Source: Alistipes sp. | GTDB lineage: Bacteria; Bacteroidota; Bacteroidia; Bacteroidales; Rikenellaceae | Length of the DNA stretch: 64,000 nucleotides | Assembly (NCBI GenBank): GCA_017555105.1 | Contig: JAFZHB010000002.1 | Location: 45,346 to 109,345 of the forward strand | Direction of reading: 5' to 3' | In this document: positions 3,995 to 51,872 of the stretch, in pieces | Position numbering within the stretch: position 1 is the stretch's first letter | Layout of the letters: the number at the start of each line of letters is the position of its first letter | Translations under genes and position numbers: made by a program | The notes under the pieces: model-generated | Database searches by the model: none | The model's input: the letters and a program-made list of their open reading frames with translations, nothing else | What the model was told of the DNA's origin: nothing

Positions 3995-4032
3995 TATAAT
4001 TTGAATTCCAAATTCTCAATTTTGAATTTCTA
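3995..4032. repeat. Dispersed AT-rich intergenic repeat, copy 2
   Basis: Reverse-complement match to the copy at 33-73 and same orientation as the copy at 14680-14716. It ends only about 4 bp before the kdgA start codon, so it occupies the place where a ribosome-binding region would be. Confidence 0.5.
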
Positions 4033-35304: not shown

Positions 35305-35310
35305 GGGTTG

Positions 35311-35385
35311 TCGGGGAGACAGGATTCGAACCTGCGACTTTCTGGTCCCAAACCAGACGCGCTAACCGGGCTGCGCTACACCCCG
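35311..35385 (-). tRNA. tRNA-Pro (anticodon TGG)
   Basis: A 75-base cloverleaf on the minus strand. Acceptor CGGGGTG pairs with CTCCCCG except for a U-U opposition at pair 6-67. D-stem GCGC/GCGC, anticodon arm TCTGG-TTTGGGA-CCAGA with anticodon TGG, and T-arm GCAGG-TTCGAAT-CCTGT. CCA is not encoded. It sits at the 3' end of the HAD-SDR-OYE-5-alpha-reductase operon. Confidence 0.93.
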
Positions 35386-36895: not shown

Positions 36896-38122
36896 CTACT
36901 TGATCTTATTCAATTCGCGCCACAGACGATCGGGAATCGGCTCCTGGCAGTTGTGGCAGCACTGCATGTCGCGCGAGTACATGCGGGCGATGCAGTAGTC
37001 GCGGTGGTCACAGCCCGAGCGGGTTGTCAGGTCGCCCTCGCGCAGCTTGTTGACAAAGGCGGGGTCGTTGATCAGCGCGCGTGCCATCTGTACCAGCTCG
37101 AAACCCTCGTCCAGGACGCGCTCGATGCCTTCGCGCGACACCAATCCACCGACATAGACCAGTGGCAAATTCAACGCCTCGCGGAACTTCTTGGCGTTCT
37201 CCAGGAAGAAGCACTCCTTGAAGTCGTACTGCTTGATCATCCACTGCCCGAAGAGTGATACGACGATCTTCTGCAGCCACTCGTTCCAACCCATGTAGTA
37301 GCCCATCGTCTTGGTCGGGATGCGGCCGCGCATCACCGCCATCGGAGCGCGCGATACGAAGCCCGACGAGAGTACGATGCCGTGCACGCCGAGATGCTCC
37401 ATCTCTTTGGCGATCTCGATGCTTTCGTCGATCTCGATGCCCCCCTTGAAACCATCCTCCATGTTGTGCTTCACGAGCACAGCCATACCCAATCGCTCGG
37501 CCTGCTCCAGCACCTCCGTCAGACAGATCTGCATGAATCGCATGCGGTTGGTGAGTGAGCCGCCGAACTCGTCGCGACGATGGTTCGTGTAGGGCGAGAG
37601 GAACTGCGAGATCAAGTATCCGTGGCCGGCGTGCACCTCGACCGAGTCGAAGCCCGCCTCGTGGGCGGTCACCACCGCACGGCCAAAATCCTTCGCCATC
37701 TCGACACACTCGGTCGGTTTCAGACGACGATGGAAGGTGGGGGAGTAGAGGTTGAATCCGTTTGAGGCCGACACGGGGAACGACCCTGCGGTCGACCAGT
37801 GGGTCATGTTGCCGCAGTGACCGATCTGGATGCCGGCAGCAGCCCCCTCAGCGTGGATGGCATCGGTCATCTCGCGCAGTGCGGGCACGATCTCATCGCG
37901 GAGCCACAACTGCTTGTTGAACGATATACCACTGCGGTTGATTGAGGCGTAGGCCACGGTCGTCATGCCGACACCACCGCGTGCTACGGCGGTGTGGTAG
38001 GCTTTGAGTTGCTCGGTGGGGCCAAAATCCTTGCCCATCGACTCGAAGGCGGCTGAGCGAATCGTGCGGTTGCGCAGCGTCAGCGGACCCAGCTGAAACG
38101 GAGTAAAGAGTTTCGATTCCAT
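36896..38122 (-). CDS. Old-yellow-enzyme-type NADH:flavin oxidoreductase, candidate steroid ene-reductase
   Basis: 408 residues. An FMN-binding TIM barrel: FTPFQLGPLTLRNR start, IQIGHCG near 96-102, VEVHAGHGYLISQFLSP near 166-182, and VYVGGL near 320. Enzymes of this group reduce activated C=C bonds, including the 4-ene of 3-oxo steroids (5-beta-reductase type). The C-terminal cysteines fall at 371, 377, 388, 389 and 392, so the CxxCxxxC cluster seen in Fe-S relatives is not intact. It begins 4 bp after the 5-alpha-reductase gene. Confidence 0.87.
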   Translation of the reverse strand: MESKLFTPFQLGPLTLRNRTIRSAAFESMGKDFGPTEQLKAYHTAVARGGVGMTTVAYASINRSGISFNKQLWLRDEIVPALREMTDAIHAEGAAAGIQIGHCGNMTHWSTAGSFPVSASNGFNLYSPTFHRRLKPTECVEMAKDFGRAVVTAHEAGFDSVEVHAGHGYLISQFLSPYTNHRRDEFGGSLTNRMRFMQICLTEVLEQAERLGMAVLVKHNMEDGFKGGIEIDESIEIAKEMEHLGVHGIVLSSGFVSRAPMAVMRGRIPTKTMGYYMGWNEWLQKIVVSLFGQWMIKQYDFKECFFLENAKKFREALNLPLVYVGGLVSREGIERVLDEGFELVQMARALINDPAFVNKLREGDLTTRSGCDHRDYCIARMYSRDMQCCHNCQEPIPDRLWRELNKIK

Positions 38123-40171: not shown

Positions 40172-40713
40172 AGCATTTCCATTTTTTTACGGCGAGCAAT
40201 TCGACGACGAATCTGCTCGGCTTGGTAGGCGGCTTCACTTCGGAGCTGGCGATGGCGTACGCGGGCATATCCGAAGAGGGCGAGTGAGAGTACACCCAGC
40301 GCCATTGCGATATACATTGCTGATCGTTTTTCGGGAGCAAGCTCCTTGAAAATCAGCAGGTAGAGCGGCGCAAGGATCAAGGCCAGTCCGATGCAGAGCG
40401 CATAGGTTCGGATTCTTCTCCACTTCGTCAGCGGTGCGCAGCGGCTGTGTAGCCACAACGACTTGACGATGTAGAGCACGACTGCCCCGATGCTGACCCA
40501 CTGCAGCACGACACCTGCGCTGCCACCCTTCATCAGGGGTGAGCATGAGAGCGAGAGCAGGCAAGCATCCACAACCGCCCAAAGCGTTCTGGACGAGATG
40601 TGGCTCCACGAATCTTCCTCCTTCTTGACGATGATCTCGTGCAGGTGATCGATGCGGTCGTGGAGCTCGTTCGCGTGACGGATCTTAAAGCGGAAGTGTG
40701 GGATCAGAGCCAT
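40168..40713 (-). CDS. Four-helix membrane protein, paralogue of its downstream neighbour
   Basis: 181 residues. A charged N-terminal helix (HANELHDRIDHLHEIIVKK) leads into four transmembrane segments and a basic tail, EQIRRRIARRKKMEML. Overlaps the ribbon-helix-helix gene by 29 bp and the next gene by 4 bp (ATGA). The tail shared with the next gene and the overlaps show the two were made and kept as a unit. Function unknown. Confidence 0.75.
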   Translation of the reverse strand: MALIPHFRFKIRHANELHDRIDHLHEIIVKKEEDSWSHISSRTLWAVVDACLLSLSCSPLMKGGSAGVVLQWVSIGAVVLYIVKSLWLHSRCAPLTKWRRIRTYALCIGLALILAPLYLLIFKELAPEKRSAMYIAMALGVLSLALFGYARVRHRQLRSEAAYQAEQIRRRIARRKKMEML

Positions 40714-41860: not shown

Positions 41861-41910
41861 AGTAAATAGGTTTTAGAGGTTTGTTTTGGTTTGATATTAT
41901 TTTGATATCA

Positions 41911-41942
41911 CAAAGATAGTGCACAAGAAATCAAAAATCCAA
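41911..41942 (-). promoter_or_regulatory. Promoter of the SPFH operon
   Basis: On the minus strand TTG (41942-41940), 21-bp spacer, TATCTTTG (41918-41911), 50 bp before the start codon. Confidence 0.65.
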
Positions 41943-42066
41943 ATTTTTCGAACACTTTTTTTAATTATTTTTTTTCGAGGCTGCTCTATTATAAAGGGTA
42001 GGGTGGTCGTCGGCTTTGGCACAGTTTATGCCCGATGTGGGGCAAACCTTTCAAAACAAAGACGAG

Positions 42067-44812: not shown

Positions 44813-44878
44813 TGTGCCAAAATTTGAAAATCTTGGCAAGGTAACAGTAAATTACAAATCATCTAATCAAATAAAACC

Positions 44879-49965: not shown

Positions 49966-50034
49966 TCATTCGCACTGGACCGAATTTCGGCAAAGCACGG
50001 ACAGAGTTCGAAACAGCAAGGGACTACACCTATA

Positions 50035-50156: not shown

Positions 50157-50999
50157 ATGTCACGCACAGATTTTAATACATTATTGGAGGCCGGTGCTCA
50201 CTTTGGTCACTTGAAGCGTAAGTGGAACCCCAAAATGGCTCCCTACATCTTCATGGAGAAGAACGGCATCCACATCATCGACCTGCACAAGACGGTGCTG
50301 AAGCTCGATGAGGCTGCTGCAGCTATCAAGCAGATCGCAAAGAGCGGTCGTCGCGTGCTGTTCGTAGCTACGAAAAAACAGGCCAAGGAGATTGTTGCCG
50401 AAAAGGTGGCAGCAGTAGGCATGCCCTATGTAACCGAGCGTTGGGCAGGCGGTATGCTGACCAATTTCCCCACCATACGAAAGGCTGTCAAGAAGATGGC
50501 AACCATCGACAAGATGTTGAACGATGGTACTTTTGATAACTTCTCGAAGCGCGAGAAGCTCCAGATCGAGCGTCAGCGTGCTAAGCTTGAGAAGAACCTC
50601 GGTTCGATTGCTGACCTGACGCGTCTGCCCGCTGCTCTGTTCGTTATCGATGTTCAGAAGGAGGCTAACGCCGTGAAGGAGGCAAAGCGACTCGGCATTC
50701 CGGTATTTGCAATGGTTGACACTTGTTGTGATCCTACCGACATTGATTATGTTATCCCTGCAAATGACGATGCATCGAAGTCGATTGCTGTTGTTCTCGA
50801 TGTAATGTGTGCTGCTCTGGCCGAGGGTTCGGAGGAGCGTCGTCTCGAGAAGGAGAAGGAGGCTCAGGAGGCTGAGGCTGCTGCACCCGCTAAGAAGGAG
50901 GCTAAGCCCCGCATCAAGAAGGCCGTTAAGGCTACCGTTGATGCTCAGGAGGCTGCTGTAGAGGAGGTTGTAGCTGCTACGGAGGCTCAGGCTGAGTAA
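50157..50999 (+). CDS. rpsB: 30S ribosomal protein S2
   Basis: 280 residues. Standard S2 core (LLEAGAHFGHLKRKWNPKM at the start, RWAGGMLTNF near 97, IPVFAMVDTCCDP near 180). A C-terminal extension of about 50 residues is rich in Glu, Ala and Lys, longer than in E. coli S2 but common in Bacteroidetes. Followed by tsf after 42 bp. Confidence 0.97.
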   Translation: MSRTDFNTLLEAGAHFGHLKRKWNPKMAPYIFMEKNGIHIIDLHKTVLKLDEAAAAIKQIAKSGRRVLFVATKKQAKEIVAEKVAAVGMPYVTERWAGGMLTNFPTIRKAVKKMATIDKMLNDGTFDNFSKREKLQIERQRAKLEKNLGSIADLTRLPAALFVIDVQKEANAVKEAKRLGIPVFAMVDTCCDPTDIDYVIPANDDASKSIAVVLDVMCAALAEGSEERRLEKEKEAQEAEAAAPAKKEAKPRIKKAVKATVDAQEAAVEEVVAATEAQAE

Positions 51000-51041: not shown

Positions 51042-51872
51042 ATGGAAATCAAGGCTGCTGATGTCATGAAGCTCCGCAAGATGACGGGTGCTGGTATGAT
51101 GGACTGCAAGAAGGCGCTCATGGAGGCTGAGGGTGACTTTGCTCGTGCTCAGGATATCATCCGCGAGAAGGGTAAGCTCGTTGTAGCAAAGCGTGCTGAT
51201 CGCAATGCTACCGAGGGTATGGTTGCCACGAAGGTTGTAGGTAACAAGGCTTACATCCTCTGCTTGGCTTGCGAGACCGACTTCGTTGCACAGAACGAGG
51301 AGTATGCTGCTTCGGTAAACGCTATGTTGGATCTGGCTGTTGCTGCTGACGCTGCCGATCGCGACGCTCTGTTGGCTGTTAAGGACGCTGAGGGTCACAC
51401 GGTAGAGGAGCTCGTAACGGAGAAGTCGGGTCAGACGGGCGAGAAGATCGAGCTGGCTTACTACGCTCGCGTAGAGGCTCCCTACTGCCACGCTTACGTT
51501 CACTTCAACAAGAAGCTGGGTACGATCCTGGGCTTCAACAAGGAGATCGACGAGGCTACGGCTCACGCTGTTGCTATGTAGGCTACGGCTATGGCTCCCA
51601 TCTCGATCGATGTTGCTGACTGCCCCGCTGAGGTTGTTGAGCACGAGCGCAAGATCGCTGTCGAGGCTATGAAGCAGGATCCGAAGAATGCTAACAAGCC
51701 CGATGCCATCCTGGAGAAGATCGCCGAGGGTAAGATGCGTAAGTTCTTCGAGGAGAACACGCTCTTGAACCAGTGCGTAGTAGGCGAGAAGGAGACGATC
51801 GCTGAGCTGATCAAGAAGGCAGACAAGGAGGCTACGGTAATTGCTTACAAGCGTTTTGCGCTGGGTGAGTAA
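51042..51872 (+). CDS. tsf: Elongation factor Ts, frame interrupted by an in-frame TAG
   Basis: One continuous frame of 276 codons from ATG 51042 to TAA 51872 covers all of EF-Ts, except that codon 180 (51579-51581) is TAG. The first part (179 residues) has the UBA domain (KLRKMTGAGMMDCKKAL) and half of the core. The second part (from ATG 51591) has APISIDVADCPAEVVEHERK through the family end KRFALGE. EF-Ts normally has Gln after AxxM at this place (MQ.AAM), so one C-to-T change from CAG explains it. EF-Ts recharges EF-Tu and is expected to be essential. The frame is otherwise intact, so this is a sequence error, a suppressed amber codon, reinitiation at 51591, or a very recent mutation. Confidence 0.92.
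51579..51581 (+). other. In-frame amber codon inside tsf
   Basis: Read in the tsf frame: GCT ATG TAG GCT ACG GCT ATG. The coding frame and its family similarity continue unbroken on both sides. TAG is used as an ordinary stop at the ends of other genes here (for example purA and the MFS transporter), so the genome does not simply reassign TAG. Confidence 0.95.

Follow-up and report, generated by a model that had tools for sequence, protein, structure and literature searches.

A single in-frame amber codon in tsf of an Alistipes draft genome most likely reflects a wrong or minority base

Does a core translation factor depend on the decoding of a stop codon, or has a stray base entered the sequence record? 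The question is raised by the gene for elongation factor Ts (EF-Ts), tsf, in a draft genome of Alistipes sp., within a 64,000-nucleotide stretch of contig JAFZHB010000002.1 that was analysed as a whole (hereafter, the window). The full-length tsf frame (51042..51872, + strand) extends over 276 codons from the ATG at 51042 to the TAA at 51870-51872, and its sole internal stop is a TAG at codon 180 (51579..51581, + strand), which was read directly from the sequence. The product carries the EF-Ts domain, scoring 165.8 bits against PF00889 (EF_TS), for which the curated cut-off is 27. When the two halves of tsf were tested separately, the first matched profile positions 1-112 and the second positions 117-204. 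Together with the + strand reading, these matches bear out the sequence-only reading from which this analysis started, namely that the EF-Ts frame is intact save for the TAG at codon 180.

The genomic setting agrees with this identification. The order rpsB-tsf is a mark of tsf, and the gene lies directly downstream of rpsB (ribosomal protein S2; 50157..50999, + strand), an intact open frame whose product matches PF00318 at 306 bits and shows 91-95% identity to stop-free relatives. The assembly that contains the window is a draft of 1,769,299 bases in 22 contigs and is 86.17% complete, with about 14% missing. A genome-wide search returned the tsf with one TAG inside as its only tsf match, and no second copy was found in this assembly (86% complete).

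We compared codon 180 across 109 tsf loci from two homologue sets, of which 108 were alignable at this codon and in which some genomes are possibly represented twice. The codon was CAG in 67 loci, CAA in 38, CAC in two and CAT in one, corresponding to Gln in 105/108 and His in 3/108, and no stop codon was present in any of the 108 relative alignments. A further comparison yielded CAG in 25/25 loci, 20 of them new. The six named loci that match best all come from Alistipes assemblies, and the host is accordingly probably Alistipes-like. The proposed conservation of Gln at this position consequently holds among the aligned relatives and is not universal, given the three loci with His and the His at the aligned position of E. 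coli EF-Ts.

The sequence on either side of the TAG was then evaluated for constraint. The tsf of the nearest relative found (G481) shares 91.2% identity at the DNA level and 96% at the protein level, and has no stop. Against this gene, dS was 0.451 upstream of codon 180 and 0.362 downstream of it, with dN at 0.022 and 0.018, respectively, giving a dN/dS of ~0.05 on both sides and indicating that the downstream part is as constrained as the upstream part. Ten further relatives displayed similar constraint on both sides. Because the last 96 codons have not drifted, the stop must be very recent, absent from the organism, or read through. Judging from this divergence, any real TAG stop in tsf would be very recent.

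Decoding of TAG in this genome was assessed from its tRNAs, its release factor and its stop codon usage. An Rfam search of the genome identified 38 tRNAs, 37 of which were assigned anticodons by ARAGORN, the remaining one being read by eye as tRNA-Phe (GAA). The anticodon CTA was found in none of the 38 by these combined means in the 86%-complete genome, so the suppressor tRNA that had been offered as one explanation gained no support. A tRNA-Leu with the anticodon TAG is present; it reads CUA, not amber. Some expected tRNAs (e.g. Trp and Ile) were not found in the assembly, which fits its incompleteness. RF1 is intact, with a score above the profile cut-off and an open frame of 365 residues. 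In a screen of ~445 kb, comprising the window and 20 further stretches (about a quarter of the genome), the 287 coding-like frames terminated in TAA (186), TAG (88, the tsf TAG included) or TGA (13), confirming that TAG serves as a normal stop here. The same screen detected 25 places where a coding-like frame continues past a stop, 19 of them at TAA and six at TAG; a domain check on the TAG cases revealed that the five same-frame pairs other than tsf are different genes, each with its own Pfam domains. Reassignment of TAG was therefore rejected, given its common use as a terminator, the intact RF1 and the absence of a CTA tRNA among those found; none of the marks of amber reassignment or suppression (a CTA tRNA, TAG in several conserved genes, rarity of TAG or loss of RF1) was observed in the sequence covered.

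Premature stops elsewhere in the genome were examined as well. We aligned the window to three relatives (G034, G008 and G020); in the ~41 kb that aligned, the stop at 51579 was the only one inside a gene. An initial listing contained many in-frame stops, mostly in antisense shadow frames or in frames overextended upstream, and was subsequently filtered. Among the stops retained in the window, the one at 4032 falls at the third-last residue of the relative's protein, those at 40189 and 40237 lie within a 33% match, those at 41875-42028 and 44825-44864 are upstream of gene starts, and the one at 49968 is antisense. Comparison with G481 added a stop at 36908 (residue 36/309), which precedes the gene start found in G034. 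At eleven stop positions outside the window, the stop-bearing frame was coding in 0/11 and another frame was coding in 8/11. The stop at L180:11363 corresponds to residue 18 of the relative's frame and hence lies upstream of the likely start; for the stops at L171:10682 and L179:4978, the matched relatives' frames score below their own opposite strand; and in L178 and L190, stops occur in weak matches only (30-40%). The search for other in-frame TAG codons in conserved genes, as had been suggested, thereby returned tsf only, within the ~41 kb of aligned window and the TAG cases of the ~445 kb screen, and left the proposed read-through unsupported among the conserved genes compared.

Breaks in essential genes were, by comparison, detectable in sister drafts. 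A tsf search of the genus returned a match in 126/151 genomes, this one included, and in 59/61 of those of good quality; a stop was present in 2/126, namely this genome and G493. In G493 (contig C176, loci L198 and L223), the TAG occupies codon 250, where relatives have Lys, and the 26 tRNAs of that genome include none with the anticodon CTA. At least 2/131 genomes with an rpoC match were flagged for breaks in that gene, among them G001 (C45, locus L216), where TAA stands in place of a Tyr codon, and G456 (C168, locus L217), where the frame changes within the gene. In-frame stops in rpoB were absent from the 125/150 genomes with a match; in G471, two adjoining rpoB pieces (C52, 4685-5062 and 5056-8481) lie in different frames and resemble another frame change. 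For ileS and EF-G, no in-frame stop occurred in the genus among the matches listed, and in an order-wide tsf search (373/393 genomes with a match) a stop occurred only in this genome among the matches listed. Among drafts of the genus, essential genes thus seldom carry an isolated stop, although this case is not unique. The two stops detected in tsf are both TAG, and two in a gene this short slightly exceed what an even scatter would lead one to expect. Once G493 had been found, we considered whether amber codons might be a common tendency of the genus and rejected the idea: the codons differ, G493 yielded no CTA tRNA, and the rpoC breaks consist of one TAA and one frame change. The sister breaks, being rare, scattered and mixed in kind, would fit stray consensus errors or minority bases met through the reading of many windows.

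Collectively, these findings make it highly probable that one wrong or minority base in a metagenome assembly gave rise to the tsf TAG; the codon is truly in the sequence record and most likely absent from the organism. The consensus would hold a sequencing error at codon 180 or, alternatively, a base from a rare strain may have been taken into the consensus at low coverage, and the living population would carry an intact tsf. The reads would then be expected to contain a sense codon at this position, a step that we infer, as we do the error itself. We favor this interpretation because one codon alone is broken, both flanks are equally constrained, TAG is a normal stop and no suppressor tRNA was found, and because comparable stray breaks occur in essential genes of sister drafts and this genome is itself a draft in 22 contigs. 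A sequence error or strain polymorphism had headed the initial list of explanations, an option now favored by the evidence. Against it stand the rarity of such breaks and the occurrence of TAG in both tsf stops detected in the genus. Other drafts with an isolated nonsense or frame break in an essential gene, such as G001 (rpoC) and G493 (tsf), likewise have a conserved housekeeping gene interrupted at one place, and we found no relevant difference between these breaks and the present TAG when assemblies were compared with assemblies. Since stray breaks occur at a low rate in drafts of the genus (tsf and rpoC), a lone stop of this kind argues only weakly for recoding, and the case is mainly a caution.

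If the amber were instead real and recent, it might be tolerated through read-through or because a suppressor tRNA decodes codon 180 as an amino acid, which we regard as improbable. The preserved constraint downstream of the TAG and the second same-genus draft with a TAG in tsf are compatible with such tolerance, as is the 14% of the genome missing from the assembly; however, no CTA tRNA was found here or in G493, the TAG of G493 replaces another codon, one for Lys in relatives, and a strong suppressor would be expected to lengthen many proteins because TAG is a common stop. The five other TAG-separated pairs being different genes, and the lack of another premature stop in genes within the aligned portion of the window, argue in the same direction. 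PMC8954436 reports that highly expressed bacterial genes seldom end in UAG and that UAG read-through inserts Gln. According to PMC7886860, many crAss-like phages of Bacteroidetes encode UGA or UAG suppressor tRNAs, and some have TAG reassigned to Gln; in these phages, conserved genes carry in-frame TAG codons, often, but not always, together with suppressor tRNAs. The likeness to tsf lies in a TAG where relatives have Gln and in the Bacteroidota context, whereas here a single codon of one cellular gene is affected, TAG ends 88/287 frames and no CTA tRNA was found. Neither PMC8954436 nor PMC7886860 alters the artefact verdict. A literature search on EF-Ts essentiality and on stops in metagenome assemblies returned nothing usable, and a scan of viral contigs returned five distant homologues (36-49% identity), which were uninformative.

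A stricter form of the same idea, in which the amber is fixed and EF-Ts synthesis in this lineage requires read-through at codon 180 or a suppressor encoded in the unassembled 14%, appears extremely unlikely. Were it true, the efficiency of amber decoding would set translation capacity, G493 with its own tsf amber would count as an independent second case, and the gene would represent a rare example in which the decoding of a stop codon controls a core translation factor. That the strain has truly lost the function, and is dying or surviving without full-length EF-Ts, is very improbable: the clean break may have arisen very recently, but tsf is matched in nearly all good-quality genomes of the genus, and a variant that is not viable would not be expected to end up as the consensus.

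Production of EF-Ts as two assembling pieces, through termination at the TAG and re-initiation at the ATG at 51591 (51591..51593, + strand), is likewise exceedingly improbable. The ATG does lie 9 bases past the TAG, as had been pointed out when re-initiation was proposed, and both pieces are recognised as parts of the EF_TS domain. However, an ATG occupies this position in 10/10 same-genus tsf genes checked, and 51591 is therefore an ordinary, conserved Met codon. Gene starts in Bacteroidota are marked by A-rich leaders; the 20 bases before this ATG contain 15% A, below all 19 window gene starts compared (mean 42%, range 20%-70%), making it a poor context for initiation. The break, moreover, falls inside one Pfam domain, and no tsf divided at codon 180 was seen in the genus-wide search.

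The genus survey also recovered eleven diverged, longer EF-Ts with 46-55% identity, from genomes placed in the same genus (G005, G439, G441, G449, G450, G460, G462, G470, G479, G510 and G530); their open frames measure ~335-364, and the query matched them in two pieces, as if they bore an insertion.

Elsewhere in the window, a stretch of ~21 kb (14600-35450) separates two stretches that are adjacent in the relative G020 (L169). It adjoins a tRNA-Pro (35310-35385) and holds genes for NAD-dependent DNA ligase, electron transfer flavoprotein and phosphofructokinase, among other housekeeping genes, a content that makes a rearrangement likelier than a mobile element.
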